Below, piece after piece: positions 44,189-61,502 of a stretch of 64,000 nucleotides of DNA. Origin of the DNA: Belnapia moabensis DSM 16746. Its GTDB lineage: Bacteria; Pseudomonadota; Alphaproteobacteria; Acetobacterales; Acetobacteraceae. The stretch lies in the NCBI RefSeq assembly GCF_000745835.1, contig NZ_JQKB01000011.1, forward strand, positions 1-64,000, written 5' to 3'. The stretch's first letter is position 1. Every line of letters begins with the position of its first letter. The position numbers and the translations under genes are program-made. The notes below the pieces were generated by a model. That model did not search any database. It was given only the letters and a program-made list of their open reading frames with translations, and was not told the origin of the DNA.

Positions 44189-44192
44189 AGCA

Positions 44193-45000: not shown

Positions 45001-45030
45001 GCGGGGGTTCCCATCATGGGTTGAGGGCGC

Positions 45031-45684
45031 TCATGGGTTCAGGCCACGGGCGGCCGGGTCGAAGGAGGCGGCGGTCTTGAGGTCGAACCAGGCGGCGGCA
45101 TTGGCCTCGCCGGTGCCGCCCAGGGCGAAATGGCGGCCGAGGCCGGGGATGTAGAGCTGGTCGATGAAGAGGTGCGGCGCTTCCTGGGCGACGACATAGC
45201 GCTGGCCGCCGCCTTCCGCCGTCATGCCCGGCCCGGCATGGGCGGCGATGAGGATGCCGGGCTTCGGGCGGACGCGGACGATGATGTCGCAATCGGTCCA
45301 GGCGGGCGGCAGGGCAAGCTGGCGGCGGGCGGCCTCGACCAGGGTGATGCCGGCGGTGCGGGCGCGGGAGAGGAGCAGCACCATGCGGTCCTCCTCCATC
45401 CACCAGGGCGAGTTCAGCAGCGGCAGCAGCGCTTGGCCGCCGGTGCCGAGATAACGGCGGGCGGCGAAGCGGTAGAGCATGTTGTCCTCGGCCAGCTGCA
45501 CGCAGCGCTTGGCGATGAGGCCGCCACTGCGCTTGTAGGCGAAGCCGCCCGGGGCATCCTCGTCCGGGTCGCTGTCGAGGGTCTTGCGCGGTCCGTGGTT
45601 GGCATCGCGCCACTGGTGGCCCTCGGCCTCCATGCGGAGGGTGCTGTTGCGGTACCAGTCCTCGTTCACCGGGGTGGCGGGCAT
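45031..45684 (-). CDS. Unknown protein between fabD and fabG
   Basis: A 217-residue soluble protein without signal or membrane segments. I recognise no family. It is rich in Trp and Arg (NEDWYRNST, NSPWWMEEDRMVLLLSRA) and has a C-terminal domain LFIDQLYIPGLGRHFALGG. It lies between fabD and fabG, where fabG normally follows fabD directly, so a link to acyl metabolism is possible but only inferred. Confidence 0.75.
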   Translation of the reverse strand: MPATPVNEDWYRNSTLRMEAEGHQWRDANHGPRKTLDSDPDEDAPGGFAYKRSGGLIAKRCVQLAEDNMLYRFAARRYLGTGGQALLPLLNSPWWMEEDRMVLLLSRARTAGITLVEAARRQLALPPAWTDCDIIVRVRPKPGILIAAHAGPGMTAEGGGQRYVVAQEAPHLFIDQLYIPGLGRHFALGGTGEANAAAWFDLKTAASFDPAARGLNP

Positions 45685-45778
45685 CGGCTTGAAATCCTCG
45701 CGGGGTTTTGCGCCCCACGGTTGAACACGACGCCCACGATTGCGCGATTGAGTTCCGCGTGATCGGGGCGGCGGGGGT

Positions 45779-46738
45779 TCAGATCGTCTTGAGGAAGGCC
45801 TCGACCTCGGCGGGGTTGCCGATGGCGGTGGCGGTGGCGTCGGGGGCGTTGCGCTTCATCAGGCCGGTGAGCACCTTGCCCGCGCCGAGCTCGACGAAGC
45901 GGTCGCAGCCCATCGCCGCCATGCTGGCGACGCAGTCGCGCCAGCGGACGGTGGCGGTGACCTGCTCGACCAGCAGCCGGCGGATCTCGGTCGGGTCGGT
46001 CGCCTTGGCGGCGGTGACGTTGGCAATCACCGGGACGAGGGGGGCCTGGATCATCGCCTCGGCGAGGGCCGTGGCCATGGCGTCGGCGGCGGGGGCCATC
46101 AGCGCGCAATGGAAGGGGGCGGAGACGGGGAGCGGCAGGGCGCGCTTGACACCGAGGCCGGGGGCGGCGGCGATGGCGCGCTCCACCGCCGACTTGGCGC
46201 CGGAGATGACGACCTGGCCGCCGCCATTGTCGTTGGCGATCTCGACCACCTCCTCGGCGCCGGTCTCGGGGTCGGCCTTCGCCGCGTCGCAGATGGATTG
46301 GGCCTGGGCCAGCTCGGCGCCGAGGAGTGCGGCCATGGCGCCGGTGCCGGGCGGCGTCGCCTTCTGCATCGCCTCGCCGCGGAGGCGGAGCAGGCGGGCG
46401 GCGGTGGAGAGGTCGAAGGCGCGGGCGGCGGTGAGCGCGCTGTACTCGCCGAGGGAATGGCCGGCGACGAGGGCGACCTTGGCCGGGAGCTCGAAGCCCC
46501 CCTCCCCTTCCAGCACGCGGAGCACGGCCACCGAATGGGCCATCAGCGCGGGCTGGGCATTGGCGGTGAGGGTGAGCTCCTCGGCCGGGCCCTCGAACAT
46601 CAGGCGGGAGAGGTGCTGCTTCAGCGCCTCGTCCACTTCCTGGAAGACCTCGCGGGCCGCGGGGAAGGCGGCGGCGAGGTCGCGGCCCATGCCGGGGGCC
46701 TGGCTGCCCTGGCCAGGGAAGACGAAGGCCATTGCCAT
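45779..46738 (-). CDS. fabD: Malonyl-CoA:ACP transacylase FabD
   Basis: A 319-residue transacylase. The nucleophile S95 is in GHSLGEYSAL, the partner histidine in SAPFHCALM, and the start VFPGQGSQAPGMG is the family signature. Loads malonyl groups on acyl carrier protein. First gene of the fab group on the minus strand; 94 bases separate it from the unknown gene. Confidence 0.96.
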   Translation of the reverse strand: MAMAFVFPGQGSQAPGMGRDLAAAFPAAREVFQEVDEALKQHLSRLMFEGPAEELTLTANAQPALMAHSVAVLRVLEGEGGFELPAKVALVAGHSLGEYSALTAARAFDLSTAARLLRLRGEAMQKATPPGTGAMAALLGAELAQAQSICDAAKADPETGAEEVVEIANDNGGGQVVISGAKSAVERAIAAAPGLGVKRALPLPVSAPFHCALMAPAADAMATALAEAMIQAPLVPVIANVTAAKATDPTEIRRLLVEQVTATVRWRDCVASMAAMGCDRFVELGAGKVLTGLMKRNAPDATATAIGNPAEVEAFLKTI

Positions 46739-46823
46739 GGGACGGTTTCCTCGGAGCGTGCGCGACAGGCGGCGGGGCCTACCGGCCTGTCACACGGCTG
46801 TCAATCGCCAGCCGGGGCGGGGC

Positions 46824-47573
46824 TCAGGGGGAGGCCGCGACACCGCGGGCGACGCCCTGGGCCACGGGCGGGAGCTGGGAGGTGAGCGCGTTCTGCACCG
46901 CCTGGGTGGCGCCGGATTGCGCCGGGGCGGCGGGCGGGGGTTCGGCGGCGGCTTCGGCGGGCGGGGCGGGCGGCGGCGGGACGACGACCGGCGCAGGCGG
47001 CGCGGGCGGCAAGGCGGCGGTGTCACCGGCGGGGGTGGGTGTGCGGGCGGGCTGAGGTTGCGGGGCCGGGGCGGCGGCGGCGGCCGAGGCGGCGGCGGCG
47101 GCCGGGGTCGCGGGCGGCTCCGTCGTGTAGTCGGGGACGATGCGGGCCTGGTTGCCGGCGATGACCAGCACGCGCTGGCCGACGACGAGCGGCGTCTGGT
47201 CGCGCTGCGTCACCGAGATCAGCTCGTTCTTGCCGGTGGTGCGGACGACGTATTCGAAGGCCTTGGTGTCGCCCGCCACATGCTCGGCCGTGGTGCCGAT
47301 GAGACCGCCGAGTAGCGCGCCGCCGACGCCGCCGAGCGCCGAGCCGAGGCCGCCGCCCGGCGCCTGGGCGCCGAGCACGCCGCCGGCGGCGGCGCCGGTC
47401 GCGGCGCCGGTGCTGCCCTCGGCGGTGACGCTCACCTCGCGCCGGCCGACGACCATCCCCTGCTCCACCTTGTTCGCCTGCTGGACGGCGCGCGTGGCGT
47501 AGGTGTCCGGCGAGTAGTCGGCACCGCAGGCGGCGAGCAGCAGGAGGAGGGAGAGGCTTGGAAGACGTGGCAA
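46824..47573 (-). CDS. Outer-membrane-type lipoprotein with glycine zipper and Pro/Ala tail
   Basis: A protein of about 249 residues if it starts at TTG 47573, giving a lipobox with C16 (LLLLLAACGAD). A longer frame from 47654 has no signal-like start. The middle (residues about 55-95) is a glycine-zipper segment (GAATGAAAGGVLGAQ, GGVGGALLGGLIG) as in SlyB/Pal-like lipoproteins; a small domain with YVVRTTGKNELISVTQRD follows. The C-terminal 80 residues are Pro/Ala repeats and predicted disordered. Probably an envelope lipoprotein; start uncertain. Confidence 0.75.
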   Translation of the reverse strand: MPRLPSLSLLLLLAACGADYSPDTYATRAVQQANKVEQGMVVGRREVSVTAEGSTGAATGAAAGGVLGAQAPGGGLGSALGGVGGALLGGLIGTTAEHVAGDTKAFEYVVRTTGKNELISVTQRDQTPLVVGQRVLVIAGNQARIVPDYTTEPPATPAAAAASAAAAAPAPQPQPARTPTPAGDTAALPPAPPAPVVVPPPPAPPAEAAAEPPPAAPAQSGATQAVQNALTSQLPPVAQGVARGVAASP

Positions 47574-47718
47574 GGGCGGGTCACCGTTCCGGGTCGGGAG
47601 ATGGGTGGCGCTGCATAATGCCGATGGGGGGTGTTTGTCATCCTGCCCTGGCATGGCCTAGCCTCTCCGCCGCAGGGGGCAAGGCCGGGCCACGCGCCAC
47701 CGTTGGGGGCAGAGAGCC

Positions 47719-49311
47719 ATGGATATCCGTATGAATCGACGCGGCCTGCTGGCCGGGACCGCGGGCCTCGCCATGCCGCGGCTTGCTGCGGCCCAAGGGT
47801 CGCGGGTGCTGAAATTCATCCCGCAGATCGACCTGGCCTTCCTCGATCCGCACTGGACCACGGCCTATGTGACGCGCGGCCATGGGCATATGGTCTTCGA
47901 CACGCTCTATGGGCAGGACAGCAGCTTCAAGGCCTCGCCGCAGATGGTGGAGGGGCATGTTGTCGCGGATGACGGGAAGCTGTGGACGCTGACCTTGCGG
48001 CAGGGGCTCCTTTGGCATGACGGGGAGCGGGTGCTGGCGCGGGATTGCGTCGCCAGCATCAGGCGCTGGGCGAAGCGGGATGCGCTGGGCGGGGCGCTGA
48101 TGGCGGCGACCGAGGAGCTGTCGGCGCCGGATGACCGAACGATCCGCTTCCGGCTGTCGCGGCCCTTTCCCTTGTTGCCGGAGGCGCTGGGCAAGGTCAG
48201 CTCGCCGATGCCGGCGATGATGCCGGAGCGGCTGGCGAATACCGACCCGTTCAAGCAGGTAACGGAAATGGTGGGGAGCGGGCCCTTCCGCTTCGTCCCC
48301 GACGAGCGCGTCGCGGGCTCGCGCAACGTCTATGCGAGGTTCGAGAAATATGTGCCGCGGGAGGGGCAGCGGGCGAGCTGGAATGCCGGGCCGAAGGTGG
48401 TGCATCTCGACCGCGTCGAGTGGACCACTATCCCCGATGCGGCGACCAAGGTGGCGGCGATCCAGCGGGCCGAGCAGGATTGGTGGGAGAACCCGACGCA
48501 TGACCTGCTGCCGCTGCTGCGGCGGGACCGGCGCATCCGCATCGAGGTGACGAACCCGACGGGCACCGTCTGCATGATGCGGCCGAACCACCTGCAGCCG
48601 CCTTTCGACAAGCCGCAGGCGCGGCAGGCCTTGCTGCATGCCTTCGACCAGACGGCCTTCATGCAGGCGATCGTCGGCGAGGATGCGGCGATGTACCATG
48701 TGCCGCACGGCATCTTCTGCCCGAACACGCCGATGGCGAGCGAGGCGGGGCTCGATCCGCTGAAGGGGACGCGCGACTACGACAAGGCGCGCCGGTTGCT
48801 GGCGGAGGCGGGCTATGGCGGCGAGACGGTCGCGCTGCTGGTGGCGGCCGACTACACGCACCTCAAGGCGATCGGCGAGGTGATGGCGGATGCGATGGGC
48901 AAGATCGGCTTGAAGGTCGACTACATCGCCACCGACTGGGGCACCATGCTGCAGCGGCGGAACAACCGGGGGCCCGTCGCGCAGGGTGGGTGGAGCTGCC
49001 TCAACACCAGCTGGGAGGGGGCGGACCACATGGACCCGGCGAGCCATTATGCCATCCGTGGCAATGGCGCCGAGACCGGGGCCTGGCCGGGCTGGAGCGT
49101 CAGCGAGCGGCTGGAGCAGCTGCGCGATGCCTGGTTCGCGGCGCCGGACCTGGCGGGGCAGCAGGCGGCCTGCCGGGAGATGCAGGTGCAGGCGATGCGA
49201 GACGTGCCTAGCGTGCCGCTCGGGCAGTATATCCAGCCGACGGCCTACCGGACCAACATCACCGGCGTCGCAAAGGGGTTTCCGACCTTCTGGGGTGTGC
49301 AGAAGGGGTAG
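47719..49311 (+). CDS. Peptide/nickel-type ABC binding protein (SBP family 5)
   Basis: A 530-residue periplasmic binding protein with a twin-arginine-like signal (MNRRGLLAGTAGLAMPRLAAAQ). FLDPHWTTAYVT at the mature start and the internal blocks of the DppA/OppA family are present. The start is 47719 or the ATG at 47731. No transporter genes are beside it, so it is an orphan binding protein; the permease pair at 29480-31358 lacks one, which makes a pairing conceivable. Confidence 0.92.
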   Translation: MDIRMNRRGLLAGTAGLAMPRLAAAQGSRVLKFIPQIDLAFLDPHWTTAYVTRGHGHMVFDTLYGQDSSFKASPQMVEGHVVADDGKLWTLTLRQGLLWHDGERVLARDCVASIRRWAKRDALGGALMAATEELSAPDDRTIRFRLSRPFPLLPEALGKVSSPMPAMMPERLANTDPFKQVTEMVGSGPFRFVPDERVAGSRNVYARFEKYVPREGQRASWNAGPKVVHLDRVEWTTIPDAATKVAAIQRAEQDWWENPTHDLLPLLRRDRRIRIEVTNPTGTVCMMRPNHLQPPFDKPQARQALLHAFDQTAFMQAIVGEDAAMYHVPHGIFCPNTPMASEAGLDPLKGTRDYDKARRLLAEAGYGGETVALLVAADYTHLKAIGEVMADAMGKIGLKVDYIATDWGTMLQRRNNRGPVAQGGWSCLNTSWEGADHMDPASHYAIRGNGAETGAWPGWSVSERLEQLRDAWFAAPDLAGQQAACREMQVQAMRDVPSVPLGQYIQPTAYRTNITGVAKGFPTFWGVQKG

Positions 49312-49446
49312 GCGGCCTCTCGCCTGCGATCCGCGGAGCTTCGTCGGAGGCCGGATACCGGGGCATGGGCTGAGCGCGGCAGTCCGCCCATGCTCGCGGC
49401 GCCTGCCCGAACCTGTGCACGGGCCGCGGCATGGATCGGAGTCGAA

Positions 49447-49469
49447 GAAATGTTATGTTATAACATTGC
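49447..49469 (+). promoter_or_regulatory. Zur-box-like operator before the TonB receptor operon
   Basis: AATGTTAT-GTT-ATAACATT (49449-49467) is a perfect 8-3-8 inverted repeat. Both arms equal those of the E. coli Zur consensus (AATGTTAT-ANT-ATAACATT) as I remember it. The site lies about 50 bases before the receptor start and probably overlaps the promoter. Zur would repress the operon when zinc is sufficient. Confidence 0.75.
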
Positions 49470-49519
49470 GGATATTCTCATCGGTTGGTAAGGAGCGGCA
49501 TCACTGATCGGGTTGCAGA

Positions 49520-51652
49520 ATGCGTCGCCCCCTCCTGCCGGCCGTTACCTTCACTCTGGCCTTGGGCCTCGGCGTGCCCGGTGCTGCGCAGGTGCAGGAG
49601 GGGGAGCAGGCGACGGGCCAGGCAGTCGCGCTGCCCGAACTGGACGTTACGGCCGCCGGCGAGCGGGGTGACGGCCCGGTCGAGGGCTATCGGGCCACAC
49701 GGTCGGTCAGCGCGACCCGGACCGACACGCCGATCCGGGAGATCCCGCAGTCGATCAGCGTCGTGCCGAGGGCTGTGCTCGAGGATATCGCGGCCGTCCG
49801 CGTCGATGCGGCGCTCGACTATGCCGGCGGCATCGCGCGCGGCAACAATTTCGGCGGCCAGACCCTCTACGAGTACAATGTCCGCGGCTTCGCCACGGGG
49901 GAGTACTACCGCAACGGCTTCCCGGTGAATCGCGGCTACCAGGGCTCGCCCGACACGGCGGCGATCGAGCGGCTGGAAGTCCTGCGCGGCCCGGCTTCGC
50001 TGCTCTACGGCCGCGGCGATCCGGGCGGCACGCTGAACATCGTCACCAAGCAGCCGGTGCCGGAGCGCTTCACCGTCCTCGGCGGCCTGTTCGGGAGCTA
50101 CGGCCTGGCGCGCGGCACGATCGACGCAGCGGGCGCCCTGCGCGCCGATGGCTCGATGAGCTACCGCCTGAACGGCGCCGTCGAGGGTGGCGGCAGCTTC
50201 CGCCGCCATGTCGACAGCAGCCGCCAGTATCTCGCCCCGGCCTTCACCTGGCAGGTCTCGCCCGACACTACCGTCACCCTCGAGGGCGAGTTCCTGCACA
50301 ACGAGCGGACCTTCGATCGGGGTGTGGTGGCCTATGGCAACCGGCCGGGCGTGATCCCGCGCGAGCGCTTCCTGGGCGAGCCGGGGGTCGGCACCAACCG
50401 CAACACCAGCGGCCTCGGGCAGCTTCGCTTCGATCATCGCATCACCAATGACTGGAGCCTGCGCGGCGGCGTGCAGTATTTCGGCGGCACTCTGGAGGGG
50501 CGCGCGGTGGAGCCGAGCAGCCTGCTCGGCGATGGCCGCACGCTGCGCCGCGAGTTGCGGCAGCGCGACTTCGCCTGGAACGACCTCGACATCCAGCTCA
50601 ACCTGGTCGGCCGGTTCCGGACAGGGCCGGTGGACCATACGCTGCTCGCGGGCATCGAGTATGAGCGCTACCACAACCGCGAGGTCCTGGACCGCTCCAA
50701 TCCCGGCACCTCGCCCTTCGCCATCGACATCCTCAACCCTGTCTACGGCCAGCGGCTTCCGGCGCTGACGCGCCGCTCCAACACCGTGGAGAACAGCAGC
50801 ACCTATGCGGCCTACCTCCAGGACCAGATCGCCCTCACCGGCCGCCTGAAGCTGGTGGCGGGCATCCGCGTCGAGCATTTCGACCAGGACTTCACCCAGC
50901 GCAGCACCGGCACCGCATCGCCGCAGAGGCAGACCGCCGCCACGCCACGGGTCGGCCTTATCTACGAGCTGGGCGGCAACGTCTCGGCCTATGCCAGCTA
51001 TGCGCAGTCCTTCCGGCCCAATCGCGGCGGGGATATCGGCGGCCGTTCCTTCGCGCCGGAGAGGGGCGAGGCCTTCGAGCTTGGCGCCAAATTCGACCTG
51101 TTCGATGACCGCGTGAGCGCGACCGCGGCGCTGTTCCATATCACCAAGGAGAATGTGCTGACGGCCAACCCGGCCGACACCTCCTTCAGCATCGCGGCCG
51201 GCGAGGTGCGCAGCCGGGGCTTCGACCTGACGCTGTCGGGCAACCCGATGCCGGGCTGGCGCATGATCGGCGGCTACGCCTATATCGACGCCGAGGTGAC
51301 GCGCGACGCGACGCTGCGGCCCGGCACCCGCTTGCTGAACGTGCCGCGGCACAGCGCAAGCCTGCTCAACGTCTATGAATTCCAGGAAGGCCGGCTGCAG
51401 GGGCTCGGCCTCGGCGGCGGCGTCAACCTCGTCGGCAGCCGTGCCGGCGACACGGTCGGCTCCGCCTTCCGCCTGCCCGCCTATGCCACGGTGGACCTGC
51501 TGGCCTATTACCGGATCGGCGACCGGGTGCGGCTGAACCTCAACGTGAACAACCTCTTCGACAGGACCTATTACGACCGCTCCTACAGCAGCGTCTGGGT
51601 TTCGCCCGGCGCGCCGCTGGCCATCCTTGGCGGCGTGACGATCCGGCTTTAG
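49520..51652 (+). CDS. TonB-dependent siderophore-type outer-membrane receptor (first)
   Basis: A 710-residue receptor. Signal peptide (residues 1-22), a TonB-box-like ALPELDVTA near 38-46, a plug domain with TPIREIPQSISVVPR and IERLEVLRGPASLLYG, then a 22-strand barrel ending in an aromatic-poor terminal strand LAILGGVTIRL. The plug matches the FhuA/FpvA siderophore receptor group. Upstream is a Zur-like operator and 10 bases downstream begins a Cnt/Nik-type ABC transporter, which points to uptake of a metal-carrying chelator with zinc control. ATG 49520 is the only start after an in-frame stop; a Shine-Dalgarno match is weak. A TonB/ExbBD system is not in the window. Confidence 0.92.
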   Translation: MRRPLLPAVTFTLALGLGVPGAAQVQEGEQATGQAVALPELDVTAAGERGDGPVEGYRATRSVSATRTDTPIREIPQSISVVPRAVLEDIAAVRVDAALDYAGGIARGNNFGGQTLYEYNVRGFATGEYYRNGFPVNRGYQGSPDTAAIERLEVLRGPASLLYGRGDPGGTLNIVTKQPVPERFTVLGGLFGSYGLARGTIDAAGALRADGSMSYRLNGAVEGGGSFRRHVDSSRQYLAPAFTWQVSPDTTVTLEGEFLHNERTFDRGVVAYGNRPGVIPRERFLGEPGVGTNRNTSGLGQLRFDHRITNDWSLRGGVQYFGGTLEGRAVEPSSLLGDGRTLRRELRQRDFAWNDLDIQLNLVGRFRTGPVDHTLLAGIEYERYHNREVLDRSNPGTSPFAIDILNPVYGQRLPALTRRSNTVENSSTYAAYLQDQIALTGRLKLVAGIRVEHFDQDFTQRSTGTASPQRQTAATPRVGLIYELGGNVSAYASYAQSFRPNRGGDIGGRSFAPERGEAFELGAKFDLFDDRVSATAALFHITKENVLTANPADTSFSIAAGEVRSRGFDLTLSGNPMPGWRMIGGYAYIDAEVTRDATLRPGTRLLNVPRHSASLLNVYEFQEGRLQGLGLGGGVNLVGSRAGDTVGSAFRLPAYATVDLLAYYRIGDRVRLNLNVNNLFDRTYYDRSYSSVWVSPGAPLAILGGVTIRL

Positions 51653-51662
51653 AGCCTCCTGC

Positions 51663-53201
51663 ATGCTTCGCCGTTCCCTCGGTGCCCTGGGCGCCGCAGC
51701 CCTGCTTGCGCGCCCTGCCCTCGGCCATGCGCCCGCGGTCGCGCGCCGGTCGGGCGAGCGCGTGCTGCGGGTGGTCGCCCCTTTCGAATTCGCGGGACCC
51801 GACCCGGCGCGCTCGGGCCATGTCTTCGCCCGCATGGGAGTCGGGGAGATGCTGCTGGGCGCCGATCCGGAAGGCCGCCCGGTGCCGATGCTGGCGGCGT
51901 CCTGGAGCGGCTCGCCGGACGGGCTGCTGCATCGCTTCCTGCTACGGCCCGGGGTGCGCTTCCATGACGGCAGCCCGCTGACGGCCGAGGCGGCGGCGGC
52001 AAGCCTTCGCCACGCCCATGCCGCCGCCTCGCCGCTCTCCCGCGTGCCGGTCGCCACCATCGAGGCTGCGGGCGATGCGGTGCTGATCCGCCTCGCCCGC
52101 CCCTTCGCGCCGCTGCCGGCCGTCCTGGCCAATTATGCCAGCATGATCCTGGCGCCGGCGGCCTATGACGGGGCGGGCCGGGTCCGCGCCGTCATCGGCA
52201 CCGGCCCCTTCCGCGTCGAGCGCTTCTCGCCGCCCTTGCAACTCGATGTCGGGCGCTTCGACGACTGGTGGGGGCCACGCCCGGCCGTCGGCCGCGCCTC
52301 CTATCTCGTCGTGTCTCAGGGCGAGGCGCGGGCCACGATGGCGGAAAGCGGACATGCGGACCTGACCATGGGCTTGCAGCCGGTGACCCTGGCGCGGCTC
52401 CGCCGCAGCCCGCGGCTGGAGGTTCTGACCCTGCCCGTGCCGCGCACCCGCATCCTGAAGCTCAACGCCGCCTCGCCGCTCTTCGCGGACCAGCGGGTGA
52501 GGCGGGCCCTGAGCCTGGCGATCGACCGGCACGGCATCGCCACGGCCCTGCTGCGGAACCCCGCCATGGCGGCGGAACAGCTTTTCCCGCCGGTATTGCA
52601 AGGCTGGCACCTGCCCGGCCCGCCGCCGCGGCGCGACCTGGAGACGGCGCGGGCCCTGCTCGCCGAAGCGGGCTGGCGGCCGGGCGGCGGCGGCATCCTG
52701 GTGGATGCCGGCGGCCGCCGCTTCGCCTGCCGCTGTGCCACCTACATCAACTGGCCTGAACTGCCGCCGATCGCCACGGCGCTCCAGGCCCAGTTCCGCG
52801 AACTCGGCATCGACATGGCGGTGGGCATCGGCAACTCCTCCGACATCCCGCGCGGCCATCGCGACGGCAGCCTGGAGATGGCCCTGATGGCGCGCAACTA
52901 CGCGCTGGTGCCGGACCCGCTCGGTACCCTCCTGCAGGACTTCCGGCCCGGCGGCGGCGATTGGGGCGCCATGGGCTGGTCCGACCCGGCGCTCGAGGCC
53001 ACGCTGCGCGCGCTGGCGGCAGCGGAGGGCGATCCGATCGCGTTGCGCCGGCAGGCAGCCCGGATCCTGGGCGAGGCCCTGCCGGTGATCCCGATTGCCT
53101 GGTCGGAGCTGGCCGTCGCGGTCAACCGCGACCTGGCCGGCGTCACCGTGGACCCGTTCGAGACCAGCTACCGGCTGCACGACATCGCCTGGGCAGGCTG
53201 A
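51663..53201 (+). CDS. ABC binding protein, nickel/peptide/opine-metallophore type (SBP family 5)
   Basis: A 512-residue periplasmic binding protein with signal peptide (SLGALGAAALLARPALGHA). The family-5 blocks are visible: RVLRVVAPFEFAGPDPARSG, a VRFHDGSPLTAEAAAASL block (DG-x-PLTA), the C-terminal QARILGEALPVIPIAW. NikA and CntA (staphylopine binding) belong to this family. It starts 10 bases after the receptor stop and is followed by the first permease after 1 base, so it shares the transcript. Ligand could be a metal chelate or peptide. Confidence 0.9.
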   Translation: MLRRSLGALGAAALLARPALGHAPAVARRSGERVLRVVAPFEFAGPDPARSGHVFARMGVGEMLLGADPEGRPVPMLAASWSGSPDGLLHRFLLRPGVRFHDGSPLTAEAAAASLRHAHAAASPLSRVPVATIEAAGDAVLIRLARPFAPLPAVLANYASMILAPAAYDGAGRVRAVIGTGPFRVERFSPPLQLDVGRFDDWWGPRPAVGRASYLVVSQGEARATMAESGHADLTMGLQPVTLARLRRSPRLEVLTLPVPRTRILKLNAASPLFADQRVRRALSLAIDRHGIATALLRNPAMAAEQLFPPVLQGWHLPGPPPRRDLETARALLAEAGWRPGGGGILVDAGGRRFACRCATYINWPELPPIATALQAQFRELGIDMAVGIGNSSDIPRGHRDGSLEMALMARNYALVPDPLGTLLQDFRPGGGDWGAMGWSDPALEATLRALAAAEGDPIALRRQAARILGEALPVIPIAWSELAVAVNRDLAGVTVDPFETSYRLHDIAWAG

Positions 53202-53202
53202 C

Positions 53203-54168
53203 ATGGACCGGCACCTCCTCGGCCGCTTCCTGCGGCCCGTCCTCATGCGCCTTGTCCAGGCCCTGCTCGTCGCCCTGATCATCGGCGCGCTCGGCTTCGC
53301 CCTGATGGCCGCGCTGCCGGGCGACCAGGCCTTCCGCCTCGCCGCCGCCCGTTACGGCCCGGACATGGGCGATGCGGCCGCGGCCGCGCTGGTGCATCGG
53401 GAATTGGGGCTGGACCGGCCCCTGGCGGTGCAGTTCCTCGACTGGGTGGGGCGCCTGCTGCGCTTCGACCTTGGCCATTCCCTCGTCACCGGCGCGCCGG
53501 TGCTGGAGGAGCTGGCCATGCAGCTCGGCTATACGCTGGCGCTGGCCGGCGTCGCGTTGCCGCTCTCGGCCCTGCTCGGGCTCCCCTTCGGGCTCCTGGC
53601 CGGGCTGCGGCCGGGCGGGCCGGTGGACCGGGTCACGCTCGGGCTCTCGGTTCTGCTCCGGGCCGTTCCGGCCTATGCCCTCGGCCTGCTCCTGGTGGCG
53701 GTCTTCTCCATCCGGTTCCGCTGGCTGCCGCCCGCGGGTTTCGAGGGGTGGCGGGAATTCATCCTGCCCGCCCTGACCCTGGCACTCGGCCTCGCGGCGC
53801 TGTCCGCGCGCGTGGCCCGGGATTCCGTCGCCGCCGTGGCCGCCTCCCCCTACATGGCCTTCGCGCGGTGGAAGGGCCTCCCCGAACGGGCGGTGGTGCT
53901 GCGGCACGGCCTGCGCAACGCGGCCATTCCCGTCGTGGCCCTGCTCGGGCTCCAGCTCATCGGCCTGGTCGAGGGACTCGTCATTGTCGAGAGCCTGTTT
54001 TCCTGGCCGGGGATCGGGCATGCGCTGGTGCATGCCATCTTCGCCCGCGACGTGCCGGTGGTGCAGGGCGCGGCGCTGGTGATGGGGCTGATCTTCGTCC
54101 TGGTGAATGCCCTCGTGGACCTCGCCTGCGCGCTGATCGACCCGCGCCGGCCTAGGGCGGCGGCATGA
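53203..54168 (+). CDS. ABC permease, NikB/CntB/DppB type
   Basis: A 321-residue permease with long periplasmic loop after helix 1 (ELGLDRPLAVQFLDW) and the loop AFARWKGLPERAVVLRHGLRNA near residues 225-245. VIVESLFSWPGIG is typical. The ATG lies one base after the binding-protein stop; its own stop overlaps the next permease (ATGA). Confidence 0.92.
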   Translation: MDRHLLGRFLRPVLMRLVQALLVALIIGALGFALMAALPGDQAFRLAAARYGPDMGDAAAAALVHRELGLDRPLAVQFLDWVGRLLRFDLGHSLVTGAPVLEELAMQLGYTLALAGVALPLSALLGLPFGLLAGLRPGGPVDRVTLGLSVLLRAVPAYALGLLLVAVFSIRFRWLPPAGFEGWREFILPALTLALGLAALSARVARDSVAAVAASPYMAFARWKGLPERAVVLRHGLRNAAIPVVALLGLQLIGLVEGLVIVESLFSWPGIGHALVHAIFARDVPVVQGAALVMGLIFVLVNALVDLACALIDPRRPRAAA

Positions 54169-54953
54169 GGGTCCTGGCGCCCGGCCGCTGGCTCGGACTG
54201 CTGCTGATCCTGGCGCTGGCGGGATTCGGCATTCTGGGGCCCTGGCTCGCGGCCACCGATCCGGCGCGCCAGGTCCTGGCGGATTCCCTGGCGCCGCCGG
54301 GGACGGGCTATTGGCTTGGCGCTGATCATCTGGGCCGGTCCATGCTGGCGCGGCTGGCCCATGCGACGCGGCTCTCGCTCCTGCTCGCGGCGGTCACGGT
54401 CGCCAGCGCGGCCATCCCCGGCACCCTGCTCGGCATCCTCGCCGCCTGCCGCGGCGGCTGGGTGGAGAGCGGCCTGGTGCTGCTCGCCGATGCGGTGCTG
54501 GCGCTGCCCGGCCTGCTGCTGGTCCTGCTGCTCGCCGCCTTCGCGCCCGGCGACTTCCTGCCGCTCTATCTCGGCCTCGCCCTCGCGGGCTGGGTCGAGT
54601 ATTTCCGCGTCGCGCGGGCCATGGCCCGCGGCATGCTGGCGCGGCCGCATGTGGAGGCGGCGCGCCTGCTCGGCTTCGGCCCGGGCTATGTGCTGTGGCG
54701 CCTGCTGCTGCCGGGCCTGCTGCCGACCCTGGGCGTGCTCGCCGCCTTCGGCCTGGGAAACGCCGTGCTTGCGATCTCGACCCTGTCCTTCATCGGGCTC
54801 GGCATCCATCCGCCCACGGCCGAGCTCGGCAGCATGACGACCGACCTGCTGCCCTATGCCCATGAGGCGCCGCTGATGGTGCTGATGCCGGCGGCCCTCG
54901 TCTTCGTCGCCGTGCTCGGCTGCCACCTGCTGGCCGGGCGGGGGCGCGCGTGA
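54165..54953 (+). CDS. ABC permease, NikC/CntC/DppC type
   Basis: A 262-residue permease with the family motif GYWLGADHLGRSMLARLAHATRLS and the cytoplasmic loop EAARLLGFGPGYVLWRLLLP. STLSFIGLGIHPPTAELGSM is the C-terminal signature. Short N-terminus as in NikC. Start overlaps the previous stop (ATGA); its stop overlaps the ATPase start (GTGA). Confidence 0.92.
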   Translation: MRVLAPGRWLGLLLILALAGFGILGPWLAATDPARQVLADSLAPPGTGYWLGADHLGRSMLARLAHATRLSLLLAAVTVASAAIPGTLLGILAACRGGWVESGLVLLADAVLALPGLLLVLLLAAFAPGDFLPLYLGLALAGWVEYFRVARAMARGMLARPHVEAARLLGFGPGYVLWRLLLPGLLPTLGVLAAFGLGNAVLAISTLSFIGLGIHPPTAELGSMTTDLLPYAHEAPLMVLMPAALVFVAVLGCHLLAGRGRA

Positions 54954-56368
54954 GCGGCGTCCTCGCCATCGAGGGGTTCCGGGTCGAGGCGGCCGACGGG
55001 ACGGCGCTGGTGCGCAGCGTCGATGCCGAAGCGCGGCCCGGACGGCCGCTGACGCTGCTGGGCGAGACCGGCTCGGGCAAGTCCCTGGTCCTCGCGGCCG
55101 CCATGGGAAGCCTGGCCCCGGGCCTTCGCGCCGGCGGACGGGTGATGCTGGACGGGACGGAGATGCTGTCGGCCACGCCTTCGGCCCGGCGGGCGCTCTG
55201 GGGCCGCCGCCTGGCCACGCTGCCGCAGGAGCCCTGGCTCGCCTTGGACCCGACCATGCGGGCCCTGGGCCAGGTGGCGGAGGTCTATCGCCTAGTCCGG
55301 GGGATGCCCGCCGCGGCCTCCGCGGAGGAGGCGCGGGCGCGGCTGGCGGAGCTTGGGCTCGGCGGCGTCGCCGCGCTCTATCCCTTCCAGCTCTCCGGGG
55401 GGATGGCGCAGCGCCTCGCCCTCGCCATCCTGCGGGCCTCGGAGACTCCCGTCCTTCTCGCCGACGAGCCGACCAAGGGGCTCGATGCCGATCGGCGCGA
55501 CGAGGCGGGAGCACGGCTGCGGGCCGAGGCGGAGCGCGGTCGCACGGTGGTCTGCGTGACGCATGACGTGGCGATCGCCCGCGCCCTGGGTGGCGAGGTC
55601 GCGGTGATGCTGGAGGGCCGGGTGGTGGAGCGCGGCCCGGCGGCGAGGGTGCTGGAGCGTCCGTCCCACACATACACACGACGCCTGCTGGAGGCGGAAC
55701 CGGCGCGCTGGCCTGAGCTGCCGCCGCGGCCCGCGCCCTGCGGCGAGGTGGCGGTCGCGGCAGAGGGGGTGTGCCGCGGCTTCGGTGGCCGCCCCGTGCT
55801 ATGCGGGGTCGATCTCTCCGTGCGGCGCGGCGAGATCGTGGCCGTCACCGGCCCGAGCGGCTGCGGCAAGACCACGCTCGGGGATGTGCTGCTCGGGCTG
55901 CTGCGGCCGGATGCCGGGACCGTCCGGCGCCTTCCCGGCGTGGTGCCCTGGCGCTTCGGCAAGCTGTACCAGGACCCTCCGAGCGCCTTCGCGCCGCACC
56001 AGACCATGCGGCAGGCGCTGGGCGACCTGGCGCGGCACCATGGCCTGGCCTGGGATGCCATCGCCGCCCTTGTCGAGCGGCTGCGCCTGGCGCCGGCCCT
56101 GCTGGACCGCCGGCCGGACGCACTGTCGGGGGGCGAGTTGCAGCGCTTCGCCCTGGTCCGCGTCCTCGCGCTCGATCCCGTCTTCCTTCTGGCCGACGAG
56201 CCGACATCGCGGCTGGACCCCATCACCCAGCGAGAGGTCTCGATGCTGCTCGGCGAGCTGGCCGGGGAGCGCGGGCTGGCGGTGCTGCTGGTGACGCATG
56301 ATGCGGCGCTGGCCGCGAAGCTGGCCGACAGGACGCTGCGGTTGCGGGCCAACGGCACCGACCGGTGA
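54950..56368 (+). CDS. Fused double ABC ATPase (CntD/CntF or NikDE-like in one chain)
   Basis: A 472-residue protein with two complete ABC modules. First: Walker A GETGSGKS (39-46), signature LSGGMAQR and Walker B LLADEPTKGLD. Second: Walker A GPSGCGKTT (about 300), signature LSGGELQR and Walker B LLADEPTSRLD. Nik/Opp/Cnt systems normally have two separate genes. GTG start overlaps the permease stop. It completes the five-gene receptor/transporter operon. Confidence 0.92.
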   Translation: MSGVLAIEGFRVEAADGTALVRSVDAEARPGRPLTLLGETGSGKSLVLAAAMGSLAPGLRAGGRVMLDGTEMLSATPSARRALWGRRLATLPQEPWLALDPTMRALGQVAEVYRLVRGMPAAASAEEARARLAELGLGGVAALYPFQLSGGMAQRLALAILRASETPVLLADEPTKGLDADRRDEAGARLRAEAERGRTVVCVTHDVAIARALGGEVAVMLEGRVVERGPAARVLERPSHTYTRRLLEAEPARWPELPPRPAPCGEVAVAAEGVCRGFGGRPVLCGVDLSVRRGEIVAVTGPSGCGKTTLGDVLLGLLRPDAGTVRRLPGVVPWRFGKLYQDPPSAFAPHQTMRQALGDLARHHGLAWDAIAALVERLRLAPALLDRRPDALSGGELQRFALVRVLALDPVFLLADEPTSRLDPITQREVSMLLGELAGERGLAVLLVTHDAALAAKLADRTLRLRANGTDR

Positions 56369-56503
56369 GCGAGCCGGCCGCGCCCGGGCGGCAGACAGGT
56401 CCGGGTCCCGTTGCGATGCGGCCTCGAGCCGGCTGACTACAGACTCCCCCACCCCATGCGCATCGCGACCCGGTCGGGGAGGCTTGCGGAACTGTAAGGA
56501 TAT

Positions 56504-56522
56504 GATAATGAGAGTCATTCGC
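56504..56522 (+). promoter_or_regulatory. Fur-box-like operator before the second TonB receptor
   Basis: GATAATGAGAGTCATTCGC matches the classic Fur consensus in 15 of 19 positions, with perfect inverted AATGA and TCATT arms. It lies about 25-40 bases before the receptor start. Iron-dependent repression is a reasonable inference; alphaproteobacteria may use Fur, Irr or RirA, so the regulator is not certain. Confidence 0.6.
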
Positions 56523-56544
56523 AAAAACTGATCAGGTTGAGGGA

Positions 56545-58842
56545 TTGGCACCGTTGGGTCGACATCGCCGCAAGGCCATTCTGGGTGTGCTCGTCCAGCC
56601 CACAGGCAGCTCGCAGGATCCAGGGAGACGCTCCTTTCCCGGCTGGAAGGCCTGTGCCCCGACTGGTTTCGCCGTCAGCACGATGCTGTCCTGCGGCCTC
56701 CTCCTCGCGCCGGCGGCCGAGGCCCAGCAGGCGCCATCCGCGGACGCGTCCGGCCCTGCCGTTCTGCCGGGCACCCCGACCGACTCGTCATCGGTCAGGT
56801 TGCCGATGATGGAGATCACCGGCTCCGCTGGCCAGGCGCCGGGGGCGCTTCCGCCGCCTTATGTCGGCGGCCAGGTGGCACGGGGCGGATCGCTCGGGCT
56901 GCTCGGGACCAGGGGCGTGATGGACATCCCCTTCAGCACGACCAACTTCACGTCGCAGCTGGTCGAGGACCAGCAGGCGCGCACCGCGGCCGATACGCTG
57001 ATCAATGATTCCTCGGTTCGCCTGACCACCGGCAGCAACGGCTTCGACGATACCTTCCAGATCCGTGGATTCCCCGTGCAGGCCCAGGATGTCGGGCTGA
57101 ACGGGCTGTACGGCCTGGTCTCCTCCAACCGCGTGCAGGCGCAGCTCATCGAGCGCATCGAACTGCTGCGGGGGCCCGGTGCGCTGATCAACGGCATCGC
57201 GCCTGGCGGCAGCATCGGCGGGGGCATCAACATCATCAGCAAGCGGGCCGGGGACCTGCCCCTGACCCGGCTGACGACGACCTATGTCGGCAGCGCCAAT
57301 TTCGGCCTTCATGCCGACGTGGCCCGGCGCTACGGGCCGAGTGGCGAATGGGGCATCCGCTTCAACGGCCTGTACCGCGACGGCGAGGCCTCGATCGACC
57401 GCGGCAATCTCCGCAGCGGCTTCGGCGCGCTGGCGCTGGACTACCGGGGCGAGCGCCTGCGCTGGTCGCTCGACGGCATCTTCCAGCGCGACGACACGCG
57501 GAATTTCCGCCCGCAGATCACCCTGTTGCCCACCATCGCCACCATTCCCTCCCCGCCCGATGCGCGCAGCAACTGGTATCCGGGGACGCGGCTCTCCCAG
57601 CAGGACGCAACGGTCGCCACCCGCCTCGAATACGACGTGACGGACTGGCTGACCGCCTATGCCGCCGTGGGCTACCGCGACGGCTGGAACGAGCAGACCT
57701 TCCCTGATTCCCGCCCGGGCGGCGTGGATGCCCTCGGCAATTTCAGGGTCACCAACGCCCTCTACGACAGCTATTCCAAGACCGTCAGCGGCACCGCCGG
57801 CGCCAACATGCGGTTCAACCTGCTGGGCGTCGGCCACACGCTCAACATCGCCTATACCGGCTTCCAGCAGGAGAACGGCAACGCCTACGTCACCTCGGGC
57901 ACCAGCTTCCCCTCCAGCATCTACAACCCGGCGCGGCTTCCCGGCATCACGGCGCCGCGGACCGACCCCCGGCGGGCTTCCGACACGACGCTCAACAGCT
58001 TCGCCGTGGCCGACACCCTGTCCTTCGCCAATGACCGCGTGCTGCTGACGCTCGGCGTACGGCAGCAGGATGTCCGGGTGCTCAGCTACAGCACGGCCAC
58101 CGGCGCGCGGACGAGCAGCTACGACGCCAGCGCGACGACACCTCTTGCGGGGCTGGTCATCAAGCCGCGGGAGAACATCTCGCTCTACGCGAATTATGCC
58201 GAGGGGCTGACGCGCGGCGATATCGTCGGGGCGGGCTATTCCAATGTGGGCGCGGTGCTGGCCCCGTTCAAATCGCAGCAGGTCGAGGCCGGGGTCCGGG
58301 TGGATTGGGGCGGGGTGACGACGACCGCTTCCGTGTTCCAGATCACGCGGCCGAACTCCATCCGGACGGCCTCGAACGAGCTCGCCTATGACGGCGAGCA
58401 GCGCAACCGGGGGCTCGAGCTCTCGGCCTATGGCGAGATCGTGCCCGGGCTGCGCGGCATCGCCAGCGCGACCTTCATCAAGCCCGAGCTCACCAGCCCC
58501 GCTGTCGCCTCCGAGCGCGGCAACGACGCGGCCGGGGTGCCGGACAAGACCGTCTCGGCTACGCTGGACTGGGACATGCCGTGGGTGCCGGGGCTCGCCC
58601 TCAACGGGCGGGTGATCTACACCTCGGGCTCCTACCTCACCAGTGCCAATACGCTGCGCTTCGACGGCTGGACCCGCGTCGACATCGGCGCACGCTACCG
58701 CACCGAGATCGCCAGGAAGCCGGTCGTGTTCCGGGCCAACCTGGAGAACGCCTTCGACCAGGACTACTGGCTCACCACCGGCACCTTCGTGACGGTCGGC
58801 GCGCCACGCACCTTCGTCTTCTCGGCGTCCTTCGACTTCTAG
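56545..58842 (+). CDS. TonB-dependent siderophore-type receptor (second)
   Basis: A 765-residue receptor. Start is TTG (56545, or 56554), giving an unusually long export signal that ends at APAAEAQQ near residue 62. The TonB-box-like SVRLPMMEITG follows, then the plug (TFQIRGFPVQAQD, IERIELLRGPGALING) and the barrel ending in FVFSASFDF with the C-terminal aromatic. The plug GINIISKRAGD block is typical of siderophore receptors. Preceded by a Fur-like operator. It lies 176 bases after the fused ATPase and has its own promoter. Ligand unknown; ferric siderophore is likely. Confidence 0.92.
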   Translation: MAPLGRHRRKAILGVLVQPTGSSQDPGRRSFPGWKACAPTGFAVSTMLSCGLLLAPAAEAQQAPSADASGPAVLPGTPTDSSSVRLPMMEITGSAGQAPGALPPPYVGGQVARGGSLGLLGTRGVMDIPFSTTNFTSQLVEDQQARTAADTLINDSSVRLTTGSNGFDDTFQIRGFPVQAQDVGLNGLYGLVSSNRVQAQLIERIELLRGPGALINGIAPGGSIGGGINIISKRAGDLPLTRLTTTYVGSANFGLHADVARRYGPSGEWGIRFNGLYRDGEASIDRGNLRSGFGALALDYRGERLRWSLDGIFQRDDTRNFRPQITLLPTIATIPSPPDARSNWYPGTRLSQQDATVATRLEYDVTDWLTAYAAVGYRDGWNEQTFPDSRPGGVDALGNFRVTNALYDSYSKTVSGTAGANMRFNLLGVGHTLNIAYTGFQQENGNAYVTSGTSFPSSIYNPARLPGITAPRTDPRRASDTTLNSFAVADTLSFANDRVLLTLGVRQQDVRVLSYSTATGARTSSYDASATTPLAGLVIKPRENISLYANYAEGLTRGDIVGAGYSNVGAVLAPFKSQQVEAGVRVDWGGVTTTASVFQITRPNSIRTASNELAYDGEQRNRGLELSAYGEIVPGLRGIASATFIKPELTSPAVASERGNDAAGVPDKTVSATLDWDMPWVPGLALNGRVIYTSGSYLTSANTLRFDGWTRVDIGARYRTEIARKPVVFRANLENAFDQDYWLTTGTFVTVGAPRTFVFSASFDF

Positions 58843-59094
58843 GGCGGGGTCCGGAAGGCTGCTGTGCGTCCTGCCCGCCTGGACAGGCGCCTGCGGCGCT
58901 TCGGCGGACCGGCTCCAGGCGGCGTGGCGGACCAGCGGCCCGCCCGCATCGACCGCCCCCTTGCGCCGCCACCCCCAACCGTGCTTTACGGCCCGCTTCC
59001 CTGCCGCCGCGGAGGCATCGCGCGCGGCTATGCCCATTTGCGCGCCCGGCATCCTGCCTGTCGCCTCGGGCTGAGACAGCCGGAGGGGTTCCAC

Positions 59095-59568
59095 ATGCCG
59101 CTATATGAAAGCGTGTTCATCGCACGCAACGACGTCACCCAGCAGCAGGTCGAAGCGATCGCGGAGCTGGTTGCCGGCATCGTCGCCGAGCAGGGCGGCG
59201 AGGTGAAGAAGCGCGAATACTGGGGCCTGCGCGGCCTCGCCTATCGCATCAAGAAGAACCGCAAGGGGCATTACATGCTCCTCGGCATCGACACGGTCCC
59301 GGCCGCCATGCAGGAAGCCGAGCGCCAGCTGGGCCTCAACGAGGACGTGCTGCGCGTGATGACGCTGCGCGTCGAGGAGATCGACGAGGCGCCGTCCGCC
59401 ATCCTTTCCCGCCGTGGCGAGGAGCGCGAGCGTGACCGCGGCTTCCGCGGCCCGCGTCCGCCGGGGCGCTTCACCAGCGGCCGCCGCGAGCGCGGCGACG
59501 AGCGCGAGGAATTCCGGGCCCGTCCGCGGGACGAGATGGCCGATCCTTCCATGGGCGGCGAGGAGTAA
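59095..59568 (+). CDS. rpsF: 30S ribosomal protein S6
   Basis: A 157-residue S6. The first 100 residues are the canonical domain (MPLYESVFIARNDVTQQQ, KREYWGLRGLAYRIKKNRKG). A C-terminal tail of about 50 residues rich in Arg, Glu and Gly extends it beyond the usual 100-135. First gene of the rpsF-rpsR-DUF2232-rplI operon; 3 bases separate it from rpsR. GGAGGGG precedes the start. Confidence 0.97.
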   Translation: MPLYESVFIARNDVTQQQVEAIAELVAGIVAEQGGEVKKREYWGLRGLAYRIKKNRKGHYMLLGIDTVPAAMQEAERQLGLNEDVLRVMTLRVEEIDEAPSAILSRRGEERERDRGFRGPRPPGRFTSGRRERGDEREEFRARPRDEMADPSMGGEE

Positions 59569-59571
59569 GCC

Positions 59572-59859
59572 ATGTCCGACCAGACCCCCGCTTCCGACAT
59601 GACGCCGGCCGGCCGCCGCCCGGCCGTCGGTGCCCGCCGGCCCTTCTACCGGCGCCGCAAGTCCTGCCCCTTCTCCGGCCCGAATGCGCCGAAGATCGAC
59701 TACAAGGACGTGCGCCTGCTGAGCCGCTTCCTCTCCGAGCGCGGCAAGATCGTGCCGAGCCGCATCACCGCGGTGAGCGCGAAGAAGCAGCGCGAGCTGG
59801 CCAATGCCATCAAGCGCGCCCGCTTCCTGGCCCTGCTGCCCTACGTCATCAACGACTGA
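59572..59859 (+). CDS. rpsR: 30S ribosomal protein S18
   Basis: A 95-residue S18 with [20 protein letters not shown] and [25 protein letters not shown]. An N-terminal extension of about 20 residues is present. GAGGAG precedes the ATG. Binds 16S rRNA with S6. Confidence 0.97.
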
Positions 59860-59883
59860 GGGCGGGACCCGAGGTAGTGAGGC

Positions 59884-60795
59884 GTGGTGGCGGTGACGGC
59901 ATCAGCACCATTCGGCCGGCCCCGTGAGGGACTGATGGCGGCGGCGGCCGCGGCTCTGGCCGCGACCGTCTGCGCGCTATGGGCCTTCCGCGGGCTACCC
60001 GGCGGCACGGTGCTGTTCTGGCTGACGCCGTTTCCGCTCTTCGCGGCGGGGCTCGGCTTCGGCCTCGGCAGCGTGGTGGCGGGGGTGGCGCTGGCGGCGC
60101 TGCTGCTGGCGCTGGTTGGTGGCGGCATGCCGCTGCTGGTCTTCCTGCTGCTCTTCGGCCTGCCGGTGCCGCTGCTGCTGGGGGCGGCCTTCCGCAGTGG
60201 CGGGCTCGGCCTGCCGCTGGCCCTGCTCGGGCTCTGGCCGGTCTCCGTCCTGCTGGGCGCCGCGCTCTTCCTCGCCGACGATGGCGGGCTGGAGCCGGCG
60301 ATGCGGCGTGCGGTGGAGATCGCCCTCGCTCGGCTCGGCCTGCCGGCGCAGGAGATGCTGGTCGCGGAGCTGGTGCGGGTGAAGGCGGCGGCCATCGGCT
60401 TCTGGGCGGATATCGCCCTGCTGGCCAATGCGGCGGGGGCGGAGCGCTTCCTCGCCCGTCGCGGGCTGCTGCCGATGCCGCGCGCGCCATGGAGCGCGGT
60501 GCGACTGCCGGGCTGGTACCTGCCGTTGCCGGCGATCGCCGCGGGCTTCTTCCTGGCGGCACCGGAGGATGGGGATGCGGTCGCGCTCTCCGCCCTGCTG
60601 CTGCTGCTGGTGCCGTTCTTCCTGCAGGGCTGCGCCGGCGTGCATGCGCGGCTGCGCGGGCGGCGGGGTGCGACGGCGATGCTGGCGGGCTTCTACCTGC
60701 TGATGCTGCTCTTCCTGCAAATCATGGGCCCCGGCCTCGTCGGCCTCGGCCTCTACGACCAAATCCGGCGGCGCCAGGCGCCGCGCAACAGCTGA
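59884..60795 (+). CDS. DUF2232 membrane protein in the ribosomal operon
   Basis: A 303-residue protein with about eight hydrophobic helices and GTG start. No catalytic motif. A DUF2232 protein between rpsR and rplI is a conserved arrangement in alphaproteobacteria. Possibly involved in membrane biogenesis; function unknown. Confidence 0.88.
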   Translation: MVAVTASAPFGRPREGLMAAAAAALAATVCALWAFRGLPGGTVLFWLTPFPLFAAGLGFGLGSVVAGVALAALLLALVGGGMPLLVFLLLFGLPVPLLLGAAFRSGGLGLPLALLGLWPVSVLLGAALFLADDGGLEPAMRRAVEIALARLGLPAQEMLVAELVRVKAAAIGFWADIALLANAAGAERFLARRGLLPMPRAPWSAVRLPGWYLPLPAIAAGFFLAAPEDGDAVALSALLLLLVPFFLQGCAGVHARLRGRRGATAMLAGFYLLMLLFLQIMGPGLVGLGLYDQIRRRQAPRNS

Positions 60796-60810
60796 CGAGA
60801 GAGTTTTCCC

Positions 60811-61365
60811 ATGATCGACATCATCCTGATGCAGCGCGTCGAGAAGCTCGGCCAGATGGGCGAGGTGGTGAAGGTGAAGCCGGGCTATGCCCGCAACTTC
60901 CTCCTGCCGCTCGGCAAGGCGATCCGCGCGAACAAGGCGAATCTCGAGAAGTTCGAGTCGCAGCGCGCGCAGCTTGAGGCGCAGAACATCAAGCGCCGCG
61001 AGGAGGCCGAGCGCGTGGCCGAGCGGATGGACGGTCTCACCGTCACCATCATCCGTCAGGCGGGCGAGAGCGGCGGCCTCTATGGCAGCGTCTCGGCGCG
61101 CGACATCGCCGATCTCTGCAAGGAGGGTGGGCTGACCATCTCGCGCAGCCAGGTGCTGCTGGAGCAGCCGATCAAGACGCTGGGGCTCACCAAGGTGCGC
61201 GTCGAGCTGCACCCGGAGGTGCATATCCCGGTGACGGTCAACGTCGCCCGCAGCCAGGAGGAGGCCGAGCGCCAGGCCCGTGGCGAGGAGATCGTCCGCG
61301 AGGAGGAGCCGAGCCTCGAGGACGAGCTGCGCGCCGAGATCGGCGCGGCGATGGACGATCGCTGA
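60811..61365 (+). CDS. rplI: 50S ribosomal protein L9
   Basis: A 184-residue L9. [29 protein letters not shown] with FLLPLGKA is the N-terminal rRNA-binding domain, then a long connecting helix and C-terminal domain. An acidic tail of about 30 residues follows, longer than in E. coli. Last gene of the operon; a strong terminator lies 106 bases downstream. Confidence 0.97.
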
Positions 61366-61471
61366 TATCCCCACGACAACGCTGCGCGTTGCCGCGGGGC
61401 CCCCATCAAGGGCGCTTTGACGAGCAGCGTCTCGGCATCCTTCCGCGGCAAAGCCGTGGAAGGCGCGAATG

Positions 61472-61497: not shown

Positions 61498-61502
61498 CGT
61501 TC

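Follow-up and report, generated by a model that had tools for sequence, protein, structure and literature searches.

What does the five-gene run at positions 49520-56368 of a Belnapia moabensis DSM 16746 sequence import, and what switches it on? The run lies in a window of 64,000 nucleotides (the whole stretch of DNA that was analysed; positions 1 to 64,000 of contig NZ_JQKB01000011.1 in assembly GCF_000745835.1), which sits on a 147,566-base contig of a 6.73-Mb genome. It follows a Zur-type operator and encodes a TonB-dependent receptor together with an inner-membrane ATP-binding cassette (ABC) transporter. We favour, at a probability of roughly 0.6, the reading that the run is repressed by Zur and imports a metal chelate across both membranes, the metal being zinc or possibly cobalt, and the chelator being foreign or the product of an unrecognised pathway. 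The features concerned are the following.

49449..49467, no strand assigned: Zur-type operator, a perfect inverted repeat AATGTTAT-GTT-ATAACATT that includes GTTA-N5-TAAC
49520..51652, plus strand: TonB-dependent outer-membrane receptor, 710 amino acids (Pfam TonB barrel and plug; TIGR01783)
51663..53201, plus strand: family-5 (cluster C) periplasmic binding protein, 512 amino acids (Pfam SBP_bac_5; own clade beside NikA)
53203..54168, plus strand: inner-membrane permease of NikB/Opp-B type (BPD_transp_1; equivalog cut-offs unreached)
54165..54953, plus strand: inner-membrane permease of NikC/Opp-C type (BPD_transp_1; equivalog cut-offs unreached)
54950..56368, plus strand: ATPase with two fused ABC domains, NikD-like then NikE-like, 472 amino acids (ABC_tran, two stretches)

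The palindrome GTTA-N5-TAAC, which marks members of the alphaproteobacterial Zur regulon according to the available part of PMC4176598, is present in the box at 49449-49467. This box is the only match in the window when three mismatches are allowed, and none of 100 shuffles gave one; 52 bases separate its end from the receptor ATG at 49520. Zur would bind here and repress the operon in a zinc-dependent manner, as judged from the sequence. An earlier note on this DNA, made by a model from the letters, had described a perfect inverted repeat about 50 bases before a TonB gene, followed by genes with gaps of 10 bases (receptor to binding protein) and 1 base (binding protein to first permease) and then stop/start overlaps. 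The description is accurate throughout, the overlaps being ATGA between the permeases and GTGA between the second permease and the ATPase, and Pfam agrees with the gene identities that it gave. Its single ATPase is indeed one gene, but the product consists of two ABC halves, of which the N half is closest to NikD (residues 20-249) and the C half matches NikE at 281-464. ATPases of at least 405 amino acids were found in 78 of 84 cases in the family, the window included.

The genome encodes a candidate regulator and carries further boxes of the same type. There are two Fur-family genes. One of the two proteins has two CxxC pairs and, among NCBIfam models, scores best with that for Zur (118.8 bits, the runner-up reaching 36.6); a Zur protein is present, though its score lies under the 167-bit cut-off of the model. 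The zur gene adjoins a COG0523 GTPase gene and a HisI-like frame (HisI named by eye). The 19-mer pattern occurs at six places in the whole genome with at most three mismatches, the window box being one of them, against one place for the reversed pattern. On contig C16 a box directly precedes a gene whose product is ZnuA by Pfam and nearest AztC by NCBIfam, and on contig C8 a box precedes genes for an ATPase and a permease nearest AztA and AztB; the AztA, AztB and AztC matches are all below their NCBIfam cut-offs. The znu/azt-type zinc importer is seemingly split over two contigs (L011 7200-8914; L012 7366-8261), each half with a Zur-type box. The box on contig C35 stands immediately before a second TonB receptor gene (L014 8023-10131), whose product is unlike the window receptor and is possibly, at a guess, a ZnuD-like protein. 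A box with two mismatches on contig C6 precedes a 119-amino-acid frame (L010 7733-8175) that has no NCBIfam match and is a possible new Zur target, and the box on contig C17 has no called gene within about 1 kb. The view of the earlier note that the repeat arms are of Zur type is borne out by boxes of this type at the znu/azt-type genes, and a zur gene and a zinc importer, both of which it suggested looking for, were found.

Conservation of the operator was assessed among relatives of the binding protein. A scan of public genomes gave 361 relatives, and the best 80 of the 361 were analysed as loci. In 71 of the 80 all four genes were called, in the order binding protein, permease, permease, ATPase; among the remaining nine, L085, L094, L096 and L121 stop at a contig end, and L100, L108, L122, L145 and L148 were left unresolved. 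To train the Zur matrix we used four Caulobacter sites (PMC4176598), four Paracoccus sites with that of pden1341 removed (PMC5387054), both sets as given in the available parts of these papers, and three sites of the Belnapia genome; the window site was left out of training. The threshold was placed at 10.68 (95th percentile of the first set of controls) and was reached upstream of 62 of 79 units; among control upstream regions taken from these loci, 27 of 543 reached it. At a score of at least 20 the figures were 47 of 79 and 16 of 543, these controls coming from nine loci. The controls exclude genes labelled COG0523, Zur, ZnuA, AztA, AztB or resembling the C35 receptor, and L127 is in neither count, its upstream DNA being too short. 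An earlier version of the test gave 61/79 against 28/544; the later run admits receptors more loosely as first genes. Because related species are not independent of one another, all these figures are counts and not probabilities.

Zinc genes also stand near the unit in relatives. A COG0523 GTPase gene was found in 11 of the 80 loci, a ZnuA gene in 10 and either of them in 13, as counted without a control set. Azt/znu-type genes, COG0523 and the transporter unit form a single run in L091 and in L097; the latter, from Rhizobium leguminosarum Tri-43, contains AztB-like and ZnuA-like genes. A three-gene zinc operon, zniCBA, has been described in R. leguminosarum UPM791 (PMC12183173), and the available part of that account does not mention the transporter unit. 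On a Paracoccus aestuarii plasmid a zinc ABC transporter lies about 2.8 kb past the first permease of the unit, in a gene table that is incomplete and does not list the intervening stretch, and in Pantoea ananatis zigA is divergent to the unit. The operator and these neighbours suggest that the metal is zinc.

Family-5 binding proteins often carry peptides. The unit might accordingly be a peptide or glutathione importer that has a Zur box by chance, and dipeptide-binding structures do match the modelled fold of its binding protein. The box, however, is kept across relatives, the unit has zinc neighbours, a siderophore-type receptor is encoded in the same gene run, and the DppA and GsiB profile scores are low, so that we already regard this explanation as very improbable.

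The profile scores of the binding protein were 170.7 bits for Opp5A_nikA (cut-off 600), 132.4 for NikA (393), 90.3 for GsiB (594), 74.9 for CntA (800) and 48.0 for DppA (1005). The candidate assignments as a dipeptide or glutathione binder (DppA, GsiB), as the staphylopine binder CntA and as NikA proper were rejected on these scores, the last also on Gly431 at the position of the NikA nickel ligand His416. The NikA-type models give the window protein its highest scores, and each of the 25 family members that were scanned matches them. In a tree of 92 rows, comprising 89 family members, NikA and GsiB of Escherichia coli and the product of the window gene at 47719-49311, the 89 members form a single clade on a long branch, with a Shimodaira-Hasegawa-like approximate likelihood ratio test (SH-aLRT) value of 98 obtained by a quick method with three far outgroups. 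The gene at 47719-49311 itself encodes another family-5 binding protein on the same strand and ends just 5' of the Zur box; no transporter genes were recognised adjoining it, and its product is distant from the operon protein in the tree.

The NikA resemblance raises the question of whether the operon is a nickel importer of the NikABCDE kind, whose permease types are also like those of the window. The need for His416 in NikA is stated in the title of PDB entry 3qim, and this position is Gly in 84 of the 89 members. We take the other NikA pocket positions to be Tyr402, Arg137, Trp100 and Arg97. Tyr402 is replaced by Pro in all 89 members and Trp100 mainly by Pro, Ala or Val. Since Arg97 is retained in 41 of the 89, the window protein excepted, and Arg137 in 8, the pocket is not wholly unlike that of NikA. 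A palindrome in betaproteobacterial relatives that resembles the Nur box (described below) would also suit nickel. Against this, His416 and most of the other checked residues are lost, the NikA scores are far under their cut-offs, and the operator of the window is of Zur type, while E. coli nik has nikR downstream; the two ATPases of the E. coli system are moreover fused here. A nickel importer is in our view very unlikely.

A predicted model of the binding protein, built from 38 sequences, is confident (predicted local distance difference test, pLDDT, 90.9). Its fold matches are led by NikA proteins, namely Staphylococcus aureus NikA and E. coli NikA with metal chelates, and they also include CntA (template modelling, TM, score 0.80) and peptide binders. 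Several of the matched NikA structures were solved with metal chelates, and the modelled fold would suit a chelate binder, without naming the cargo.

The S. aureus CntABCDF system is a cluster C transporter for a metal chelate in zinc shortage; it has separate ATPases, CntD and CntF, no outer-membrane receptor, and synthesis genes alongside. The window operon differs from it in its fused ATPases and in the low CntA score. The pseudopaline system cntOLMI shares Zur control and a TonB receptor with the window operon and has a different importer. The operon could then be an importer specific for opine-type metallophores, of the staphylopine or pseudopaline kind, made by other organisms. Importers of dipeptide/oligopeptide type are present in opine-zincophore gene clusters (PMC7438024, available part), the fold matches CntA, and opine-type synthesis genes of its own were not found: the CntM (PF10100) and nicotianamine-synthase (PF03059) families have no match in the genome at E<=1. 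Many other folds, however, match equally well, the CntA profile gives less than a tenth of its cut-off, and nothing links the ligand to opines, which makes this explanation improbable. The earlier note was right that CntM-like genes are missing, here genome-wide, and a placement among dipeptide or glutathione binders, which it had named as a refutation, did not emerge; the Cnt or Nik membership that it proposed was not supported, and no direct evidence speaks for its opine ligand.

Other sources of a chelator were looked for in the genome. Aerobactin-type synthesis (PF04183) has no match. A nonribosomal peptide synthetase (NRPS) region on contig C40 was examined as a possible source; this contig lacks both the Zur 19-mer pattern, at up to three mismatches, and any relative of the window receptor. 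The matrix gave a single score of 16.2 at C40:24272, where the right arm is poor; a decarboxylase-like frame begins 234 bases further on, and the first condensation domain of the NRPS region is about 4 kb away from the site on the same side. Within C40:29001-45000 no score reached 10. With opine-type and aerobactin-type synthesis not found, and with a single doubtful Zur-type score a few kilobases ahead of the NRPS region, it is simplest to suppose that the chelator is foreign. Its probable sources are neighbouring organisms or an unrecognised pathway.

The receptor scores 371.3 bits with TIGR01783 (TonB-dependent siderophore receptor), above the cut-off of 223.5, and its best PDB sequence matches are the enantio-pyochelin receptor (top), FoxA and FhuA. 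The PDB label 'CntO' (6i96-6i98) among the matches was not used as evidence, the scores being shared with FoxA-named entries. In a search over the class, with at most two candidates per genome scored among the matches listed, only the Belnapia genome itself gave a receptor match at E<=1e-150 (1 of 385). Counting the window, 13 of 95 loci have a receptor of the window type in front of the unit; the 95 contain four loci selected from plasmid hits (L154, L155, L156 and L163), of which three were taken for having both genes. Six of these cassettes are from Acetobacteraceae (the window, L055, L070, L071, L072 and L083), and the others are from Methylobacteriaceae (L074, L079), Azoarcus (L128), Cupriavidus replicons (L154, L155, L163) and Variovorax (L156); L073 is cut ahead of the receptor position. 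In all six Acetobacteraceae cassettes with upstream DNA, that of the window among them, a Zur-type site with 0-4 mismatches precedes the receptor. In the receptor tree, the cassette receptors intermingle with homologues that have other partners, including HoxN/NixA permeases; the tree says little on the order of events, because the non-cassette rows were picked by similarity.

In L074 and L079 this five-gene set stands behind a cobalamin riboswitch (115.7 and 128.7 bits, Rfam), and zinc itself is therefore unproved. In L079, from Methylorubrum, there are two divergent cobalamin riboswitches, at 5933-6129 (minus strand) and 6333-6541 (plus strand), one of them before the receptor cassette. These loci bring in the serious rival that the operon is a Zur-controlled importer of a cobalt chelate, cobalt serving as a stand-in under zinc shortage. 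A precedent is PA2911-PA2914 of Pseudomonas aeruginosa, a Zur-controlled operon of a TonB receptor and an ABC importer for which cobalt-pyochelin is the proposed cargo in the available part of PMC11481552. The window operon resembles it in joining receptor and importer in one (predicted) Zur-controlled operon with a metal chelate as the proposed cargo; the same source likens PA2911-PA2914 to transporters of siderophores or vitamin B12, unlike the cluster C unit of the window. The top PDB match of the window receptor, and the homologues beside HoxN/NixA nickel/cobalt permeases in Methylobacterium, also favour cobalt. On the other side, no cobalt- or B12-like neighbour was seen by eye, without a dedicated search, at 44000-64000, the unit adjoins zinc genes in other relatives, and only L074 and L079 have a riboswitch before the unit among the 14 loci scanned with Rfam, a scan that most of the 80 loci lay outside. 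We consider cobalt as the cargo under Zur control unlikely, though less so than the peptide, nickel or opine explanations.

No riboswitch was found by Rfam in L128, L154-L156 and L163. The cassettes of L128, L154, L155 and L163 have in common a TGCAA-N5-TTGCA palindrome, similar to the Nur box tTGCaa-N5-ttGCAA (PMC3919588, available part), which was not seen in L156; exact copies number 1, 1 and 2 in the three Cupriavidus replicons. In Cupriavidus sp. KK10 (L155 3590-5989) a second copy stands near the cassette; a small frame follows it and, as judged by eye, TonB/ExbB/ExbD-like frames lie further downstream. In the Azoarcus metagenome-assembled genome (L128), a tandem second receptor precedes the cassette receptor and has a Fur-like site just ahead of it at 4274-4292, in agreement at 14 of 19 positions with what we take to be the Fur-box consensus.

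Further receptor homologues are found on plasmids. In Methylobacterium (L158 8016-11384, L159 8025-11358) the homologue is followed by the HoxN/NixA permease gene. In Acinetobacter baumannii plasmid records (L164 5869-7983, L165 5989-8043; 42-45%), a cluster C-like ABC unit is absent from the annotated stretch shown, and L164 has a YejB-type ABC transporter nearby.

A close parallel to a Zur-repressed chelate importer is found in Paracoccus denitrificans, as described in the available part of PMC5387054. There, pden1341-1344 encode a binding protein, two permeases and an ATPase, the same four-gene order behind a Zur site as in the window; their expression rises 12.6-16 fold when the medium is depleted of zinc and 7.7-9.0 fold when it is chelated, and Zur binds the pden1341 promoter in vitro in an electrophoretic mobility shift assay (EMSA). 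The authors termed this cluster C transporter somewhat unusual and left its specificity unassigned. In pden1338-1344, COG0523 and two hypothetical genes are located upstream, where the window operon has the TonB receptor. The Paracoccus relatives of the binding protein are those of P. siganidrum (51%) and P. aestuarii (48%), and the Zur-type site of P. siganidrum agrees with that of pden1341 at 12 of 15 positions by eye. The literature search turned up no Zur operon that joins a TonB receptor to a cluster C transporter, most subscription papers being outside its reach. The parts are known; the combination of receptor and cluster C transporter and its riboswitch-controlled relative look new.

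Several findings weigh against a Zur-repressed zinc-chelate importer. Besides the riboswitches, the Nur-box-like palindromes and the partly retained NikA pocket, 17 of the 79 units have low Zur-matrix scores. Nine of them have a pattern match with at most four mismatches farther upstream (L081, L091, L093, L095, L097, L104, L120, L122, L148), L074 and L079 are the riboswitch loci and L073 is the cut one, which leaves L108, L114, L121, L126 and L133 without explanation. The unit is patchy, being present in three of eight sampled genomes of the same genus, its own included; across the family, 24 of 299 sampled genomes, again counting its own, have a relative of the binding protein at E<=1e-60. 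A simple scan found no sigma-70-like hexamers. Orthology to pden1341-1344 would rest on layout, regulation and the Paracoccus relatives.

Downstream of the operon on the same strand there is a second TonB siderophore receptor gene (56545-58842). Upstream of it, at 56504-56522, GATAATGAGAGTCATTCGC is Fur-box-like by eye and agrees at 15 of 19 positions with the consensus as we presume it to be. This receptor seems to be a separate iron unit.

If the Zur-repressed chelate importer is the correct reading, the following mechanism may be proposed: When zinc is short, Zur would leave the box at 49449-49467 and the five genes would be made together. The TonB receptor would take a zinc chelate, or a substitute cobalt chelate, across the outer membrane, and the family-5 binding protein would catch the intact complex in the periplasm. 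The two permeases and the fused double ATPase would then pump the complex inward. The metal may differ by lineage. A wider and tentative idea, against which we think the odds stand, is that the cassette is portable and that whichever regulator stands in front of it sets its metal. In Acetobacteraceae this regulator would be Zur, in Methylobacteriaceae it would be a cobalamin riboswitch, and in Cupriavidus and Azoarcus it would act through a Nur-box-like palindrome. One set of proteins would then handle zinc, cobalt and perhaps nickel, the foreign chelator probably being of a single type throughout.

The finding bears on how Gram-negative bacteria bring chelates of non-iron metals into the cytoplasm, a route that is not settled. 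The receptor and the inner-membrane importer are encoded in one operon, and therefore the whole route is testable by one deletion set. With their differing regulators, the relatives offer a natural experiment in how the metal is chosen. There is also a hint as to the function of the P. denitrificans transporter, in that transporters of the same layout may handle metal chelates.

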